Positions 5,532-34,086 of a stretch of DNA of 64,000 nt are shown here, one piece after another. Made by a program: the position numbers and the translations under genes. Numbering within the stretch: the first letter of the stretch is position 1; every line of letters starts with the position of its first letter. The stretch covers positions 186,001-250,000 of the forward strand of contig JBGORM010000006.1 in assembly GCA_041538185.1 (NCBI GenBank), in the 5' to 3' direction. The stretch is from Melioribacteraceae bacterium 4301-Me (lineage in GTDB: Bacteria; Bacteroidota; Ignavibacteria; Ignavibacteriales; Melioribacteraceae). A model generated the notes under the pieces. The model worked only from the letters and a program-made list of their open reading frames with translations, searched no databases and had not been told where the DNA came from.

Positions 5532-6572
5532 TTAATTACTTTGATTTACCCATTGCTTTTTAAATCTTTTATAGCTGTAGAGAATGAAATTAGTCAGAAG
5601 AGTAGGATTGAATTTGGTAACAAGTGACATAAACAATAAAAGGAAAGAACTTATATGAATTAAAATCTTTTGCCATCTTTTTCTATTAATTGCAAGATTG
5701 ATAAAGCCATAATAATGCACTTTTTTTAGCAAATCTTTTATATCTTTTTTAGGTAGATAGTTTTTCAATAAAATGCTAAAGTGAGTAATTCTTTTTTCTG
5801 GAGGAGGGGGTTGAAGGTAATTGCTGCCGAAAAGAACAGTAAGATAATTTCCTACATTTTTCGGACAACTGAAGTTATATCCTTCAAAATTAATTTTGGC
5901 AAGGGGATATATATCTTCTAATTTATAATATTCTCTTTCGTAATCAACTAAGGTATCATTAAAGCTGTAATTAATTAGACAATTGTTCACATCATAATTC
6001 GAAGTGCTTTCATTCATATAACTGTTATAATAATTAAAAAAATATTCCTTAGCTTTGATTGGATTTTTAAATTTTGTTAAAAACTCTCGATGAATATCGA
6101 GTATATCATTTTCTTTTTTTGCTTTTCCTCTGACGAAAATGCTAGCCACATTAGTTAAGCTTTTGTCAATTGCAATGGCTTCTTCTGTGTTTTTTATAAA
6201 TTTTACTGGTATCAAATCTATTTTAACAGGGAAAATGTAATCGACTAAGAGCGAGGATGTTCCGAAACAATCATGCCAGGTTAAAAATTTTTCGTCATGG
6301 AAATAAAGCAAGTATTTATCACTTTTATTAGAATAATTATTAAGGAGAAAAATCAATTTATCATAATCATTTTTGGGAAGGCATATATCTATGTCATCAT
6401 CCCATGGAATAAAGCCATTATGCCTTACAGCTCCTAACAACGTACCCCCATCTATCCAGTAATTCAGCTTGTTTTCTTTGCATAGCTTGTCTACCAATAA
6501 GAGCAGGTTTAAACATTCTTTTTGAGCTAAACGAAGTGCCTCGGATTTATCTTCTATTTTATTGATTCTCAT
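5532..6572 (-). CDS. LicD-like phosphotransferase
   Basis: The family moves a phospho-alcohol (classically phosphocholine from CDP-choline) onto surface glycans. The LicD nucleotidyltransferase-fold core is near residues 41-64: DGGTLLGAVRH followed by IPWDDDIDI. The C-terminus has a hydrophobic, possibly membrane-associated stretch (about 300-335). Its 346 residues fit the family. The start overlaps the end of the upstream LicC-like gene by 14 bases, so the two are translationally coupled. It is the last gene of a four-gene minus-strand cassette. The alcohol and the acceptor sugar are not known. Confidence 0.87.
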   Translation of the reverse strand: MRINKIEDKSEALRLAQKECLNLLLLVDKLCKENKLNYWIDGGTLLGAVRHNGFIPWDDDIDICLPKNDYDKLIFLLNNYSNKSDKYLLYFHDEKFLTWHDCFGTSSLLVDYIFPVKIDLIPVKFIKNTEEAIAIDKSLTNVASIFVRGKAKKENDILDIHREFLTKFKNPIKAKEYFFNYYNSYMNESTSNYDVNNCLINYSFNDTLVDYEREYYKLEDIYPLAKINFEGYNFSCPKNVGNYLTVLFGSNYLQPPPPEKRITHFSILLKNYLPKKDIKDLLKKVHYYGFINLAINRKRWQKILIHISSFLLLFMSLVTKFNPTLLTNFILYSYKRFKKQWVNQSN

Positions 6573-24052: not shown

Positions 24053-24088
24053 ACCAGCCTGCGCTGGCAGGCCAGTCTGCGCTGGCAG
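24053..24088. repeat. Two tandem copies of an 18-bp palindromic repeat
   Basis: CCAGCCTGCGCTGGCAGG followed directly by CCAGTCTGCGCTGGCAGA. The first has a CCAGC/GCTGG stem. A third copy, CCAGTCTGCAGTGGCAGG, is at 27568-27585. Confidence 0.6.
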
Positions 24089-24229
24089 ATTAGAAAAATG
24101 GGAATCCATCCACGAAGTGGCGCATTTGCATAAAACATCCACAGATTGTCGGGGTTAACTCCGATAGCCCCGAGAAGTCGGGGTGTATCGAAATTCATTT
24201 TAATGAATTATTTTGGGTAAAATATAATA

Positions 24230-24254
24230 TGCCGGCCTTAAATATAGACCGGCA
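24230..24254 (-). terminator. Terminator of the TPR-cytochrome operon
   Basis: On the minus strand TGCCGGTC/GGCCGGCA form an 8-bp stem (one G-T pair) around a 9-base loop, followed by TATTATATTTTA. It begins 11 bases past the stop of the T9SS-type cytochrome gene. Confidence 0.65.
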
Positions 24255-24265
24255 AAAACAACATT

Positions 24266-25384
24266 TTATTTAACAAGGTTCATTTTTTTAGTTTGCTGGA
24301 ATTCTCCGGCTGTCATTCTTGCAAAGTAAATGCCGCTTGCAACTCTATTGCCAAGACCATCAGTACCATCCCAGTCTACCGTATATTTGCCTGGCTGCAT
24401 TACCTCATAATCAATTAATCTTTTCACTTCTCTGCCCATAATATCATAGATAATTAAAGATACTTTTTCTGCTCGGGCAACAGCTACTTGTAATTTGGTG
24501 GATGGATTAAATGGATTTGGATAATTTTGCGACAACTGAAAATCGTTTGGTACATTTTTATCACTCATAACAACACTATTCACATTATGCGGGTCACCGT
24601 GACATTGTTTGCAATTCATTTGACTCATTACATTGTTGAACCCTGATGGCCCATGACAAGTCATACACTGTGCTACAGCGGGATCGGTTACAAAAGTAGA
24701 TTGAAATGTATGAGCGAAAAAGGCATTTAACACTTCAGCTGTTTTTGCAGCAACGTCACCTGCCAAACGAGCACATCTTTCTTTTCTTTCAACATCACTT
24801 ACTTTTTTGTTAGCGGTAATACACCATTGAGTTACAGAAGCGTGGCATAATACACTGCCACTTACACTTTGAGGTAATGCATCGTTATACTTTTTGTCTT
24901 CGTACTTACCATCAAGAGCAGCTTGATTTGCAGCATCACTTGGAAAGTTTGAAGAAGTATAATAACCCCACACTTCATTTATTAGTGCCCCGGAATCTGC
25001 TTTAGAAGTGACTAAACTTATAATTGCAGCGGCACCATTAACAGCACCGCAAAGAGTACCCCAGCCGTTTCCTCCGCCGCGCCCAAAAAGCATTACTTCC
25101 ATTGGAATATTTGCCCATGGGTCGGGCAGTAATTCAGATAATGCTTCTGTAAAGGCTCCAAATACACCGGAGGCACAGTCTTTGTCATTCCAATAAAGGT
25201 GATGCGCCTTTAACCGTACAACCTCAGGATCCAATTGGGTATACGGTAATGGCCATGTCGTTTTAGTATTGGCTAAAATCTTTCCGCCAGCAAGAGCATT
25301 TAATCCTACAACTCCCGCAACGGCCCCTACCGCATACTTTGATGTACTCGTTAAAAATTCTTTCCTTGTAATTTCACGTGGCAT
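24266..25384 (-). CDS. Exported di-haem GCAxxG (split-Soret-like) protein with T9SS sorting domain
   Basis: A 372-residue protein. The N-terminus ITRKEFLTSTSKYA plus a hydrophobic stretch resembles a Tat-type signal, though it has R-K rather than twin arginine. Residues ~60-205 resemble the C_GCAxxG_C_C redox family: Cys70, LCGAVNG (Cys112), Cys180, Cys188 and Cys204. Two c-type haem sites follow, CMTCH (240-244) and CKQCH (258-262). The C-terminus (284-372) is a type IX sorting domain with NYPNPFNPST, YDIMGREV, GIYFARM. This predicts an exported, surface-attached electron-transfer protein. It follows the TPR gene by 11 bases and shares its sigma-54 promoter. Confidence 0.87.
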   Translation of the reverse strand: MPREITRKEFLTSTSKYAVGAVAGVVGLNALAGGKILANTKTTWPLPYTQLDPEVVRLKAHHLYWNDKDCASGVFGAFTEALSELLPDPWANIPMEVMLFGRGGGNGWGTLCGAVNGAAAIISLVTSKADSGALINEVWGYYTSSNFPSDAANQAALDGKYEDKKYNDALPQSVSGSVLCHASVTQWCITANKKVSDVERKERCARLAGDVAAKTAEVLNAFFAHTFQSTFVTDPAVAQCMTCHGPSGFNNVMSQMNCKQCHGDPHNVNSVVMSDKNVPNDFQLSQNYPNPFNPSTKLQVAVARAEKVSLIIYDIMGREVKRLIDYEVMQPGKYTVDWDGTDGLGNRVASGIYFARMTAGEFQQTKKMNLVK

Positions 25385-25395
25385 AATTTAACTCC

Positions 25396-25836
25396 TTAAT
25401 TGTGATTTTTATTCGTTTGTTTTAGTATTTGAATAATGGAAGATATTCTTTCGTCAGATGAATTAATTTTCTCAGCATTTTGAAAATATTCTAAGGATTT
25501 TCCTTTATCACAATAAAGCCATAGTATTCCTAGTTCAACGTTGGTTTCATAGCTGTCTTTTTTCTCTAAAAATTCTTCTTCTAATTTTTTAGTTAATTCT
25601 GGACAAGGGCAATCTTCTTTTTCTGGATTAGTATTGGTTATTAATCTTATATCCTCTCTAATAAGTTTGTAAAAAAGGTCCAACGCCTTATCCAACTGAC
25701 CCGTTTGTGTATAGCATATTATTAGTTTCTTTTGTGTTTTTTTCGCAGCAGAATTATTAACTATTTTTTCAAATTCTCTAATTGCTGAAGAATAATTCCG
25801 AATTAGAAAATGGTAATTTCCTAACATCTCGCTCAT
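25396..25836 (-). CDS. TPR-like protein of the sigma-54 operon
   Basis: A 146-residue protein built of TPR-like helix pairs (NYSSAIREFEKIV near 15-27, QLDKALDLFYKLI near 47-59, KGSLEYFQNAEKI-like near 112-124). It has no signal peptide. One C-P-C-P cluster occurs near residue 78. The start at 25836 lies only a few bases after the expected transcription start of the sigma-54 promoter, so the second ATG (25827) may be used. It probably assists its partner, the cytochrome encoded 11 bases downstream, but no direct function is known. Confidence 0.7.
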   Translation of the reverse strand: MSEMLGNYHFLIRNYSSAIREFEKIVNNSAAKKTQKKLIICYTQTGQLDKALDLFYKLIREDIRLITNTNPEKEDCPCPELTKKLEEEFLEKKDSYETNVELGILWLYCDKGKSLEYFQNAEKINSSDERISSIIQILKQTNKNHN

Positions 25837-25850
25837 AGTATTTTTACAAG

Positions 25851-25866
25851 TACAATTTCCCTGCCA
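25851..25866 (-). promoter_or_regulatory. Sigma-54 (-24/-12) promoter
   Basis: Minus-strand TGGCAGGGAAATTGTA fits TGGCACG-N4-TTGCW with exact spacing and two mismatches (C to G at position 6, C to T in the -12 box). It lies 15 bases upstream of the TPR gene ATG. A sigma-54 activator gene and rpoN are both in the window. Confidence 0.72.
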
Positions 25867-25948
25867 TTTTTTTGTTAAACTTTTTAACTAATTATCTTGG
25901 TTTTTTCTTCAAAAAGGATTTTTTGCTAAAAAACAGATACGATGTACT

Positions 25949-25965
25949 GTTGCACGGAATGCAAC
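25949..25965. promoter_or_regulatory. Candidate activator-binding inverted repeat, proximal
   Basis: GTTGCA-CGGAA-TGCAAC, 17 bp, 83 bases upstream of the -24 element. Its TGTTGCA half-site also occurs in the distal inverted repeat. Position fits an upstream activating sequence for an enhancer-binding protein. Confidence 0.6.
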
Positions 25966-26005
25966 TTATCTCCTTAACTTTTTTTGCTGAAACGCATTAA
26001 GTGAT

Positions 26006-26022
26006 TGCAACAAAGTGTTGCA
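26006..26022. promoter_or_regulatory. Candidate activator-binding inverted repeat, distal
   Basis: TGCAACA-AAG-TGTTGCA, a perfect 17-bp palindrome, 140 bases upstream of the -24 element and 14 bases from the activator gene's stop codon. It shares half-sites with the 25949-25965 repeat. Confidence 0.6.
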
Positions 26023-26035
26023 TGAAACGGTAGGT

Positions 26036-27361
26036 TTAACTGTCTTGAGTTCTTATTGATTTTAAATGACGCCAGATAGTTGTTCTATTAACACCAAGAA
26101 CTTGTGCAACTTTGGTCTTGTTCCATTGATATTTATTCAACAGACTTATAAGCTGGTTTGTATCAATATTTAGTTTGCCTAACTCTTTATCTTTTTGGCA
26201 ATCAGAATACTTAATAATATAAGATGGCAAACTGCATAATGTTATTTTATTCTCTTCTTTGTTTCTAATAAATGCGTATTCAACAGCATTTTCGAGTTCA
26301 CGAATATTGCCCGGCCAATAATAGTTTAACATTGCATTTAATGCATCATCCTCAATATATTCAATTTCCTTATTATAAAGCAGATTAAATCTCTGTATAA
26401 AATGTTTTATTAAGAATGGAATGTCATCTTTTCTTGCTCGTAAAGGTGGTAAGTAAATTGGTACTACATTTAACCGGTAATACAAATCTTCTCTGAAGCT
26501 ACCATTTTTAATTGCTTCCTTAATATTTATGTTAGTAGCAGCAATTATTCTTACATCCACTTTTCTTGTAATGGACTCACCTAATCTTTCAAACGTACCT
26601 TCTTGAATAACTCTAAGAAGCAGAGCCTGCATTTGGAGAGGCATTTCACCAATTTCATCTAAAAAAATTGTTCCTTTATCAGCAAGCTCGAACCTGCCTA
26701 TTCTATCTTTTACAGCGTCTGTAAAAGCCCCTTTTGTATGACCAAATAATTCGCTTGCAAGTAAATTAGGTGGCAAAACAGAGCAATTAACTTTAATAAA
26801 TTTCTCTTTTCTTCTTTTGCTGGTAGCCTGAATTGCATTGGCAATCATCTCTTTACCCGTGCCAGTTTCACCTTCTATCAATACTGGAACGTCAGTGCAT
26901 GCAATTTCTTGTATTAAATAAAAAATATCGTTCATTACTTTAGTGTGACCAACAATGCCATGAAAGTTAGTATTTTCTTTTAAATAATTGTCTACAGCAG
27001 AATCAAAAGAAATATCTCTAAAAGAAATCACGCCTCCTATCGGATAACGTTCTGAGTTCTTCAACACTGCCGCATTTAGTTTAATTGGAATAGGATTAGA
27101 GTTCTTGCAGTGGAATTTGGTCTTTAAATCATAAATGCTTCTACCAGACTCCAATACTTTAGCTAAGGGACATTCAAAAGTGCAGAATTCGGTCTGAAAT
27201 ATATCTTTACAATGTTTTCCTATTACTTCTTCTTTTTTAAAACCAGTAATCTTTTCAGCAGCATGATTAAAAAAATCGATTCTAAAATCCATATCAACTG
27301 TGAACAATCCTTCAGCTAAAGAATCAAGTATTTCCGATTTTAGTTTAGATATATCACTCAT
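26036..27361 (-). CDS. PAS-domain sigma-54-dependent transcriptional activator
   Basis: A 441-residue enhancer-binding protein. A PAS domain spans residues ~10-120 with four cysteines (51, 60, 64, 85; the segment is HCKDIF...FCTFECPL), suggesting redox or cofactor sensing. The AAA+ domain has Walker A GETGTGKE (164-171), Walker B TIFLDE (231-236), and a sigma-54-contacting loop reading GAFTDA (211-216) instead of GAFTGA. A Fis-type HTH is at ~413-434. There is no receiver domain, so it senses its signal directly. It is just upstream of the -24/-12 promoter it probably activates. Confidence 0.93.
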   Translation of the reverse strand: MSDISKLKSEILDSLAEGLFTVDMDFRIDFFNHAAEKITGFKKEEVIGKHCKDIFQTEFCTFECPLAKVLESGRSIYDLKTKFHCKNSNPIPIKLNAAVLKNSERYPIGGVISFRDISFDSAVDNYLKENTNFHGIVGHTKVMNDIFYLIQEIACTDVPVLIEGETGTGKEMIANAIQATSKRRKEKFIKVNCSVLPPNLLASELFGHTKGAFTDAVKDRIGRFELADKGTIFLDEIGEMPLQMQALLLRVIQEGTFERLGESITRKVDVRIIAATNINIKEAIKNGSFREDLYYRLNVVPIYLPPLRARKDDIPFLIKHFIQRFNLLYNKEIEYIEDDALNAMLNYYWPGNIRELENAVEYAFIRNKEENKITLCSLPSYIIKYSDCQKDKELGKLNIDTNQLISLLNKYQWNKTKVAQVLGVNRTTIWRHLKSIRTQDS

Positions 27362-27567
27362 AAATAAAATATAAAAAGATTTCTATATCTAATTTAATAA
27401 AAAGGGAAGACTTTTTAAATACTGGGCATTTATGAATGCAGAATGTAGAATCCAAATTTTTAACTTAGCCATAGGCTAATGAGCCTCTGACTCAAAGGAA
27501 AAATAGCCCCTTGGACGATAAGGCATAACTTACATAGTAAAAAGTTGAATACCAACGTTTTACGTAC

Positions 27568-27585
27568 CAGTCTGCAGTGGCAGGT
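27568..27585. repeat. 18-bp palindromic repeat, isolated copy
   Basis: CCAGTCTGCAGTGGCAGG, related to the tandem pair at 24053-24088, in the gene-free stretch upstream of the activator gene. Confidence 0.5.
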
Positions 27586-32005: not shown

Positions 32006-32632
32006 CTAACGCTTGTGTAATTTAATTGGAATTATTCTCGGTACCCTTTTTTGATATTCTATGTATTCATCACCAAATTTTTCTACCAATTTTTTTTCTT
32101 CGAAAATTGAACCGACATAGAAATAAATTATAATACAAATTAACATTACTAAATAAAACAAATCCATTGTTGGCCTTAAACTCAAGAACAAAATTGAAAA
32201 AAAATAAATTGGATGGCGCATATATTTGTAAGCACCTTTTGTATTAAATCTTTGAATTTCATCAAGTTCTTCTGCATTGTATTCTTTATTTAAATACCTT
32301 TTAATTTGTGCTACTCCAAGAAATTCTGTTACGTCTACAGACCGTGCTGCCCACAGCAAGCCAAACAAACTTATAATTTGAAATGCAAATGTAATAATAT
32401 CGTAAGGATAATGTAAATCGTAAATGATTATATCTGGCTTAGGCGCCTCAAAGTAGACAAACATAAAAATTATTAAAGAAGAGATATTATAAAACAAACG
32501 GTAAAATGCTATTAAGTTGCCTGCTCGTTGAGCAATTAATCTTTTAACTTTATTTGAAGCAAGAAAAGTGTGAGAGAAGCCGAAAAAAGTAAAAAGCAGA
32601 ATTATTAAAAGAACATCAAGAAGAAAGCTCAT
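32006..32632 (-). CDS. NnrU/isoprenylcysteine methyltransferase-like membrane protein
   Basis: A 208-residue protein with about five hydrophobic helices. The C-terminal region has YKYMRHPIYFFSILF and FGDEYIEYQKRVPRIIP, the RHPxY and E-x2-Y motifs of the membrane methyltransferase family (ICMT, NnrU, MddA). Those enzymes use SAM to methylate small thiols or lipid-like substrates; the target here is unknown. Its start overlaps the rpoN stop by 4 bases, so the genes are translationally coupled. Confidence 0.82.
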   Translation of the reverse strand: MSFLLDVLLIILLFTFFGFSHTFLASNKVKRLIAQRAGNLIAFYRLFYNISSLIIFMFVYFEAPKPDIIIYDLHYPYDIITFAFQIISLFGLLWAARSVDVTEFLGVAQIKRYLNKEYNAEELDEIQRFNTKGAYKYMRHPIYFFSILFLSLRPTMDLFYLVMLICIIIYFYVGSIFEEKKLVEKFGDEYIEYQKRVPRIIPIKLHKR

Positions 32633-34086
32633 AACTCTTTACGCAGTCTTGCAACGGGAATTTTGAGCTGTTCTCGGTATTTTGCAACTGTTCTACGCGC
32701 AATATGAATTCCCTTTTCTTGTAAAATACTTGCAATTTTGTCGTCGCTGTATGGATTTTTCTTTGGTTCATTATCGCAAATTTCCTTTATCAATTCTTTT
32801 ATATGTTTATTAGAGACCTCGTCACCGGAATCTGTGGGCAAACCCTCACTGAAGAAGTATTTTAGTTCATGAATGCCTTGTGGACTTTGCACATACTTTC
32901 CATTTACAACGCGGCTGATAGTAGAAATATCCATTCCAATTTCATCGGCAATATCTTTATAAATCATTGGTTTTAGGAACCGGGGACCATTTTCGAAAAA
33001 TTCATACTGCCGTTCTAAAATGGCTCGCATAATCTTTAAAAGTGTATTTCGTCTTTGCTGCAGAGATGCAATAAACCATTTTGCCGATTCAAATTTTTCT
33101 CTAAGAAACTTGTGGGTTTCTTTATCACGTTCAGAAATTTTTCTCTTCCTTTTATTATTTTCAAGCAGTTCAAGATACGATTTGCTTATTGTAACTGATG
33201 GCAAAGATTTGTCGTTTAACGTAACTATATAATTATCCTCTACCTTTTCAATTATAAAATCAGGAGTAATTTGATTTAGTTCCTCAGAATCAATGTTACC
33301 TTCACCTGGCTTAGGATTTAATTTTTGTATTAACTGCAGTGTGCTTTTTAAAGTTTCTCTTGTAAGATTAAGATTTTTTTGAATTACATCATATCGTTTG
33401 TTTACAAAATCATCGAAATGGTTAGTTAATATTTTTTCTGCCAGATAAGAATAATATGGGTCGTAAGAAGAATTTTTAATTTGGACAAGCAGGCATTCCT
33501 GTAAATTTCGAGAGGCTATTCCTACTGGTTCTAAAGTTTGAATTTGTTTTAATACCTTTTCAGCATTTTCTAATGATATGTCAATATGCTCAAAAAGTTT
33601 TAAATCGTTTACCAACCGCTGCAAATCTTCTCTAAAATAACCGTCTTTATCCAAACTACCAATGATATTTTCGCCAAGAATTGTTTCCTCTTCAGTTAAT
33701 TCCAGCATATAGAGTTGATCGATTAAAGATTCTCGCAAGCTTTTTTTCTGTGGTGCCAAAGGTCGAGACTTTTCCTCATCCTTAGAGCGATTTAGTTTAT
33801 CAAGGTCAATATCTTCATCGTTCATGAAATCTTCTATTCCAAACTCATCGTCATCATTTTGATAGGAATCATCTTCCTCTTCTATCGATTCATCTGTTTC
33901 TGCATTTTCCTCTTCCCTAAGCTCAATGTCTTCTTCAATTGTTTCTTCTAAGATTGGATTTAGTTCCAGTTCAGTTTTAATACGTTGTTCCAAAGCCAAT
34001 GTGTTCAATTGCAGAAGTTTTTGATATTGAATTTGTTGTGGAGATAATTTTTGTTGTAATGCTAATTTTTGTTGCAGCGTAAGCAT
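32629..34086 (-). CDS. rpoN: RNA polymerase sigma-54 factor
   Basis: The alternative sigma factor for -24/-12 promoters. Region I is Gln/Leu-rich (LTLQQKLALQQKLSP), followed by a strongly acidic region II (residues ~50-105), the core-binding region, and the C-terminal RpoN box ARRTVAKYRE (463-472). Length is 485. The same window holds two activator genes with AAA+ domains (26036, 37025) and one matching promoter (25851). Its operon (DUF3109, rpoN, NnrU-like, proC, hslV, hslU, phosphatase) is unusual in content. Confidence 0.96.
   Translation of the reverse strand: MLTLQQKLALQQKLSPQQIQYQKLLQLNTLALEQRIKTELELNPILEETIEEDIELREEENAETDESIEEEDDSYQNDDDEFGIEDFMNDEDIDLDKLNRSKDEEKSRPLAPQKKSLRESLIDQLYMLELTEEETILGENIIGSLDKDGYFREDLQRLVNDLKLFEHIDISLENAEKVLKQIQTLEPVGIASRNLQECLLVQIKNSSYDPYYSYLAEKILTNHFDDFVNKRYDVIQKNLNLTRETLKSTLQLIQKLNPKPGEGNIDSEELNQITPDFIIEKVEDNYIVTLNDKSLPSVTISKSYLELLENNKRKRKISERDKETHKFLREKFESAKWFIASLQQRRNTLLKIMRAILERQYEFFENGPRFLKPMIYKDIADEIGMDISTISRVVNGKYVQSPQGIHELKYFFSEGLPTDSGDEVSNKHIKELIKEICDNEPKKNPYSDDKIASILQEKGIHIARRTVAKYREQLKIPVARLRKEL

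Follow-up and report, generated by a model that had tools for sequence, protein, structure and literature searches.

A putative sigma-54 control module associated with a predicted exported split-Soret-type cytochrome in Ignavibacteria

Organization of the module

We analysed a 64,000-nucleotide (nt) stretch of the genome of Melioribacteraceae bacterium 4301-Me (assembly GCA_041538185.1, contig JBGORM010000006.1, positions 186,001 to 250,000; hereinafter, the window, to which all coordinates refer unless a locus is named). On its minus strand, from position 27361 to 24230, a 441-amino-acid (aa) sigma-54 enhancer-binding protein (EBP) is followed by a 199-nt gap, a 146-aa tetratricopeptide repeat (TPR)-like protein, a 372-aa cytochrome and a terminator-like hairpin. 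The initial annotation of this stretch, which had named no strand, claimed an activator, two inverted repeats, a -24/-12 promoter, a TPR gene, a di-haem GCAxxG gene with a type IX secretion system (T9SS) sorting domain and a terminator, all in one direction; our analysis recovered all these parts on the minus strand, the last as a terminator-like hairpin. Calling the module self-contained goes too far because rpoN, which it requires, sits about 5 kb outside it (32629..34086, minus strand; PF04552, 3.3e-60, and an open reading frame), and TatC and PorU are encoded elsewhere in the genome. On the evidence presented below, the module is likely to be a local one-component sigma-54 switch that responds to a thiol or redox signal and controls an exported cytochrome.

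The EBP (26036..27361, minus strand) combines a PAS domain (PF13426, PAS_9, 2.7e-16), an AAA+ domain (PF00158, 1e-69, 234 bits) and a Fis-type helix-turn-helix (HTH) domain (PF02954, HTH_8, 2.3e-7; 26060..26158, minus strand) whose recognition helix contains N425 within the motif LGVNRTT. The Pfam profiles gave no receiver match, as the initial annotation had it, so the protein, with its AAA+ domain, Fis-type HTH and a sensor of its own, is classed as a one-component EBP. The PAS domain (27008..27337, minus strand) carries the cysteines C51, C60 and C64 in the arrangement C-x8-C-x3-CP, conserved in 66, 66 and 67, respectively, of the 67 aligned EBPs; against PDB sequences, it matched generic PAS sensors only. 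The GAFTGA loop reads GAFTDA, as is the case in 53 of the 70 EBPs compared. The protein remains below the NCBIfam equivalog cut-offs for PrdR (360 of 795 bits), NifA (345 of 528.85) and NorR (307.7 of 476). The genome holds at least 17 EBP-like genes, and the C-x8-C-x3-C pattern was not seen in the two others that are readable in full. The conserved promoter and sites described below suggest that this EBP would activate an RpoN promoter.

The TPR-like protein (25396..25836, minus strand) was recognized from matches to TPR profiles that fall short of the Pfam cut-offs (24.1 of 27.8 for TPR_1 and 24.1 of 27 for TPR_2), from alignment and from an AlphaFold2 model. The model is all helical, with a predicted local distance difference test (pLDDT) score of 89.4, and the PDB structures that match it best are TPR arrays, with a template modelling (TM) score to the query of about 0.4 and no E value below 0.001. 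No signal peptide was seen by eye, and a PHROGs search with this protein returned nothing informative. Among 25 aligned TPR sequences (29, with L105, L110, L112 and L113 left out), C41 and C76-P-C78 are invariant and C109 is near-invariant.

Conservation and cargo exchange

We traced the module through a class sample of 197 genomes, scoring the 8 best candidates per genome in the EBP search and 10 in the cytochrome search, so that the counts are lower bounds. The cytochrome with its tail yielded 45 rows, in 44 genomes, that match over at least 266 residues. Of these, 44 lie beyond the window, and 40 were fetched (those of G035, G105, G144 and G068 were left out). The order EBP-TPR-cytochrome, the conservation of which the initial annotation had treated as decisive, is kept in 13 of these 40 relatives and in the window; G149 carries the trio at locus L033. 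Furthermore, at least 29 TPR genes are present in 25 of the 197 genomes, and every one of the 29 shares a cassette with an EBP gene, a synteny that rules out chance juxtaposition of the module genes. The EBPs themselves form a clade of at least 30 genes in 25 genomes, all scoring at least 481 bits, with the next EBPs at 374 bits or less.

The cytochromes in the 29 TPR cassettes are of different kinds. In 14 cassettes, the cargo is the split-Soret/T9SS protein; in five (L104, L105, L107, L109 and L115), it is a cytochrome with 7 to 8 CxxCH motifs and a T9SS tail; and in ten (L101-L103, L106, L108 and L110-L114), it is a lipoprotein-like protein with ten CxxCH motifs accompanied by a second lipoprotein-like protein. 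In Pfam searches with one example of each of the latter two kinds, L109 gave a T9SS tail and cytochrome c7 type, and L113 gave cytochrome c7 type and two rhodanese domains. The ten-haem protein matched no NCBIfam family, and the eight-haem protein matched, apart from T9SS tails, only below the cut-offs. The cytochrome was rejected as the conserved core, given that the TPR protein and the EBP stay together while the cargo changes; judging from this comparison, the conserved unit is the EBP-TPR pair, with interchangeable exported cytochromes.

A set of 73 named TPR loci, partly shared with the class sample and gathered with an N-terminal peptide pattern, so that it favours that protein start, includes 62 with a same-strand EBP match, two of these being fragments (L137 and L138). 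Their labels cover Ignavibacteria and relatives, candidate division KSB1, Calditrichota, some Bacteroidetes, Chlorobiota and, once, Actinomycetota. The commonest orders are EBP-TPR-split-Soret (25 loci) and EBP-decahaem-rhodanese-TPR (16 loci); in L185 and L187, there is a further protein, with eight CxxCH motifs and an end that looks T9SS-like by eye.

The TPR gene is missing from 27 of the 40 fetched split-Soret/T9SS loci, and only one (G161) of the 26 genomes behind these loci has it elsewhere; thus, the TPR protein goes with the EBP. Alternatively, the TPR protein might act in the cytoplasm as a chaperone of the exported cytochrome or load it with its cofactor, with the EBP alone sensing the signal. 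The position of the TPR gene directly ahead of the cytochrome gene in the split-Soret modules and the Tat-like signal of that cargo are compatible with such a role: substrates of the twin-arginine translocation (Tat) pathway are often served by dedicated chaperones, and CcmI and NrfG serve apocytochromes in the periplasm. However, the same TPR protein is kept with unrelated cargoes, some of which have lipoprotein-like or Sec-like starts by eye. We consider a chaperone doubtful because the TPR protein tracks the EBP across these cargoes and is lacking in most of the cargo loci; most likely, judging by this distribution, it partners the EBP, in feedback or co-sensing, more than the cargo.

Split-Soret/T9SS genes without the pair have other neighbours. 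The upstream gene was viewed in 12 of the 27 such loci; in eight of the 12, a MarR or ArsR gene with the same orientation precedes the cytochrome gene by 9-239 nt: MarR in L043, L044, L049 and L051, and ArsR with a CQC motif, 89-239 nt upstream, in L048, L050, L060 and L062. No MarR or ArsR gene was seen in the other four. In L056-L059 (genus g51), a -24/-12-like element and GTTGAA-like repeats (by eye) lie directly upstream of the split-Soret/T9SS gene, in genomes with an EBP gene about 6 kb from it and no TPR match.

Some individual loci deserve mention. Between the EBP and TPR genes of L040, there is a second promoter with a TPR start, followed by a broken frame. In its near relative L149, the order is TPR-cytochrome-TPR-cytochrome with one EBP, because of which L040 appears to be a double cassette that has collapsed. 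Genes for CcdA-like membrane proteins, recognized by eye, immediately precede the EBP gene in L149 (1086-2289) and L109 (2803-3501; both in oriented loci), as does, in L149, a thioredoxin-like gene.

Control region and site specificity

The -24/-12 element TGGCAGGGAAATTGTA (25851..25866, minus strand) fits the promoter claimed in the initial annotation. As a pattern match, it is weak evidence (3 in the window against 0.88 expected), and the element is kept in the relatives. The usual spacing from a -12 at 25852 predicts a transcription start at 25840, the same position as originally proposed, and the ATG of the TPR gene is at 25836, 4 nt past that start. Across the family, 33 of 44 TPR-first modules (a set without L149 and the modules with ten-haem cargo) have the promoter pattern no more than 70 nt from the TPR ATG, at a spacing that predicts a leader of 0-5 nt (median 3); therefore, the TPR gene looks nearly leaderless in many modules. 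Translation from a second ATG is less likely, since codons 2-3 vary synonymously (AGT, AGC and, in L115, TCA; GAA and GAG), which favours the first ATG. Leaderless mRNAs are known from several bacteria, according to the consulted portion of PMC3616915; in the literature searched, as far as the accessible text goes, we found no family-wide leaderless sigma-54 case.

Two exact 17-bp inverted repeats lie in the gap between the EBP and TPR genes, again as claimed initially: TGCAAC-N5-GTTGCA at 26006-26022, centred at about -174, and GTTGCA-N5-TGCAAC at 25949-25965, centred at about -117, the latter conserved in relatives. About 0.1 occurrences of each would be expected per window even with one mismatch allowed, and the half-sites are conserved in the relatives. 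The first form has one exact copy in the entire 3.34 Mb genome (G000) and one in G149, both ahead of a TPR gene. Exact copies of the second form number three in G000 (that of the module and two others) and two in G019 (that of the module and one other), with none in G149; the two extra copies in G000 are within long open frames with no promoter-like element near. In the 13 relatives with the EBP-TPR-cytochrome order, the intergenic regions contain repeated GTTGC-type half-sites and a GGCA-like/TTG element. More generally, the region behind the EBP contains 3.36 half-sites per 260 nt in 69 modules, the window being excluded, compared with 0.41 in 3184 pieces drawn at random from these loci, and at least three half-sites occur per 260 nt in 78% of the modules against 1.3% of the random pieces, in a count for which the motif was picked after the regions had been seen.

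The half-sites fall into two classes that follow the recognition helix. We compared 70 distinct EBPs, after removing 21 of 91 entries as duplicates: 30 have N or D in the recognition helix together with mostly GTTGCA half-sites, and 31 have G together with mostly GTTTCA half-sites. The exceptions are L123 (N, with mixed sites among which GTTTCA is commoner), L175 (S with GTTTCA), L154 (D) and L186 (N), both without exact half-sites, and, among the EBPs with G, L104 (a tie) as well as L122 and L174 (no half-sites); in L137 and L166, the residue is unreadable. In a tree of 67 EBPs built without the HTH, the N/D proteins form one side of one branch (100/99), so that the link between residue and site appears to be one event, and a statistical claim for it is weakened by this single N/D-G switch. 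The minimum numbers of changes on the EBP tree are 2 for the residue, 2 for the site and 8 for the cargo, omitting 5 rows without a site and 3 without cargo and with L149 counted as the eight-haem type.

The cytochrome and its predicted export

The initial annotation had the last gene of the module (24266..25384, minus strand) as a di-haem GCAxxG protein with a T9SS domain. The GCAxxG cysteines, two CxxCH motifs and the T9SS tail stand, and the assignment can be refined to a homologue of split-Soret cytochrome c (PF09719, 47.6 bits at a cut-off of 27; NF047622, 3.5e-45; PDB 1h21, 1e-30), the sole PF09719 match in this genome. With 154.6 bits against the NF047622 cut-off of 400 bits, the protein is a homologue outside that equivalog. 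Split-Soret cytochrome c is characterized by a split Soret band and stacked haems at a dimer face. The homology to the protein of Desulfovibrio desulfuricans ATCC 27774 (1h21) extends over residues 50-264 and includes the GCAxxG cysteines and both CxxCH motifs, whereas the T9SS sorting domain is a feature of the window protein. In the C_GCAxxG_C_C domain (24734..25177, minus strand), C70, C112 and C180 are present in every one of 40 rows and C188 in 37 of them, the same cysteines being present in 1h21; the haem motifs CMTCH (24653..24667, minus strand) and CKQCH (24599..24613, minus strand) are found in all 40. Excluded from this count is L047 (G154), where an in-frame stop in the signal region of the split-Soret/T9SS gene (5992-6024, oriented locus) reflects either an error or decay. 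In D. desulfuricans, ssc is listed in a nitric oxide table with a fold change of -1.74 (PMC5701242, in the part available), and the role of split-Soret cytochromes seems open even in Desulfovibrio, to go by the available part of PMC4215793.

The protein begins with a Tat-like n-region, TRKEFL (25352..25369, minus strand), with RK instead of RR, and ends with a T9SS type A C-terminal sorting domain (24281..24523, minus strand; TIGR04183, 32.1 bits at a cut-off of 23). RpoN was detected in 30 of 30 and TatC in 14 of 14 genomes tested, and PorU, the one T9SS component searched, scored over its cut-off in 14 of 14 (in G000, with an E value of 3.8e-300). It has to be considered whether the cytochrome, rather than transferring electrons at the surface, buffers redox changes or protects against stress in a periplasmic or anchored position, with a T9SS tail that serves for transport only. 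The presence of PorU, sister cargoes with 7 to 10 CxxCH motifs and tail residues, such as N290-P291-F292, that do not vary among 40 rows, although these rows had been retrieved with the full-length protein, all argue against such a protein, which we regard as unlikely; a cytochrome passed out by the T9SS remains the preferred reading.

The terminator-like hairpin (24230..24254, minus strand) starts 11 nt past the cytochrome stop codon. A hairpin scan of the window alone is close to chance, with 4 found against 2.4 expected; across the family, 14 of 14 modules have a predicted hairpin no more than 70 nt from the cytochrome stop codon, that of L036 being the weakest (in single-base shuffles). 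In addition, a short repeat, ACCAGYCTGCRSTGGCAGG, is present on both flanks of the module (24053-24089 and 27566-27584), with three copies within the window. The pattern was derived from its own copies, so that the chance value of 0.01 does not test it independently; the repeat may represent a repetitive extragenic palindromic (REP)-like element or a trace of cassette movement.

Proposed mechanism and relation to known systems

Comparison among genomes shows the gene order, the sites, the promoter, the hairpin, the exchange of cargo and the conserved cysteines of the module. From these features, we infer the following course of events. The three-cysteine PAS domain of the EBP would read a thiol- or redox-related signal, whereupon the EBP would bind the TGCAAC/GTTGCA repeats centred near -117 and -174, opening the RpoN polymerase at the -24/-12 element. 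The nearly leaderless mRNA, which would end at the hairpin, would yield the cytoplasmic four-cysteine TPR protein and the split-Soret-type di-haem cytochrome. The Tat-like signal would direct export of the latter, which would then acquire its haems and leave through the type IX system, possibly for a surface location where it could take part in electron transfer. The EBP-TPR pair would be a reusable control unit that the relatives apply to other exported cytochromes. Possible clues to the signal are the rhodanese-type lipoproteins in sister cassettes, the class-V aminotransferase that occurs once next to a clade EBP and the ArsR-CQC genes ahead of some free-standing split-Soret/T9SS genes; because of these neighbours and the conserved PAS cysteines, a thiol, sulfur or soft-metal signal fits.

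Several observations weigh against a local switch of this kind. Behind the thirtieth clade EBP (G187; locus L259, 5585-8603) come GTTTCA sites, a -24/-12-like element and a class-V aminotransferase gene, in a cassette without a TPR or cytochrome gene, which means that neither of these is obligatory. Among the named TPR loci, 11 of 73 show no EBP, many of them with little upstream sequence. The promoter pattern failed in 11 of the 44 TPR-first modules: variants were found by eye in L104, L105, L123, L161, L175, L177, L182 and L184, and none was seen, by eye either, in L117, L137 and L142. On the export side, the PF18962 match of the tail is just under the cut-off (26.1 against 27), and the signal has no true RR pair, with RK in 37 of 41 rows, KR, RQ and RH in one each and one row cut by a stop; the Tat route is plausible, in a form that departs from the classical motif. 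As for the sites, G019 has no exact copy of the first-form repeat, with a one-mismatch copy ahead of its TPR gene, and the G149 cassette lacks the second form even at one mismatch. Finally, repeats with up to one mismatch are more numerous in G000 than in the reversed-pattern control: 9 places against 2 for the first form and 21 against 1 for the second, three of the 21 being exact.

This last excess, along with the presence of at least 17 EBP-like genes in the genome, would suit a broader regulator that has this promoter as one of several targets, the gene order being kept all the same. However, 9 of the 10 other G000 places that were read (all eight one-mismatch first-form and both exact second-form places) are inside open frames of at least 100 codons, and a promoter-like element within 250 nt was found only at one, L261, itself inside a frame. 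Moreover, two clade EBPs are present in each of the four class-sample genomes that have a pair of TPR genes (G029, G039, G066 and G099); L149, with a single EBP for two TPR-cytochrome units, is an exception. We therefore regard a broader regulator as improbable: since the other repeat places read are mostly in open frames without a promoter-like element, the circuit looks local, though it may have more than one target.

Going beyond the local switch, the module could belong to a portable sigma-54 unit, in which the three-cysteine PAS activator and the four-cysteine TPR protein would form one thiol-, redox- or sulfur-sensing switch. Such a unit would have captured split-Soret, eight-haem T9SS and ten-haem cytochromes, the last with rhodanese, in Ignavibacteria, KSB1 and Calditrichota, and would use a code of its own (N/D-GTTGCA and G-GTTTCA); the TPR protein would be made first, nearly leaderless, as built-in feedback in many modules. 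We offer this broader scheme tentatively, as possible rather than probable.

In the NifA/NifL pair, an EBP is likewise combined with a dedicated partner that sets its activity, as we propose for the EBP and the TPR protein. The PspF/PspA pair, in the portion of PMC4641369 consulted, is similar in this respect. Both differ from the present case, where the putative partner is a Cys-rich TPR-like protein. A close parallel to the module as a whole is DVU3142/ohcBAC of Desulfovibrio vulgaris (same portion of PMC4641369), likewise a one-component sigma-54 EBP beside an operon predicted to be under its control; that operon encodes an octahaem cytochrome complex, with predicted sites and sigma-54 promoters, as here. 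In contrast to the module, the genes in D. vulgaris are divergent and the complex is membrane-linked, and the consulted portion mentions neither a TPR partner nor a T9SS cargo. The module probably operates as DVU3142-ohc does, as a local one-component sigma-54 switch, with the addition of a Cys-rich partner, of exported cytochromes that can be exchanged and, in many modules, of a start that is nearly leaderless. The available part of PMC3623810 names SO0939, a split-Soret cytochrome of Shewanella oneidensis, among putative Tat substrates, which invites comparison with the Tat-like signal of the window protein; the latter has RK rather than RR, and the two are likened by description, not by sequence.

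The initial annotation knew of no described system with this set of parts, and we found none in those portions of the literature that were searched. No paper on how the cytochromes of Ignavibacteria are controlled or exported by the T9SS was found in the accessible part of open-licence PMC, and the available portions of two Melioribacter roseus papers (PMC5492636 and PMC3534657) do not mention the module genes. The cassette ties split-Soret cytochromes to predicted T9SS export and to Cys-bearing regulators, and the two site classes offer a one-residue, one-base hypothesis for what may determine the specificity of these EBPs.

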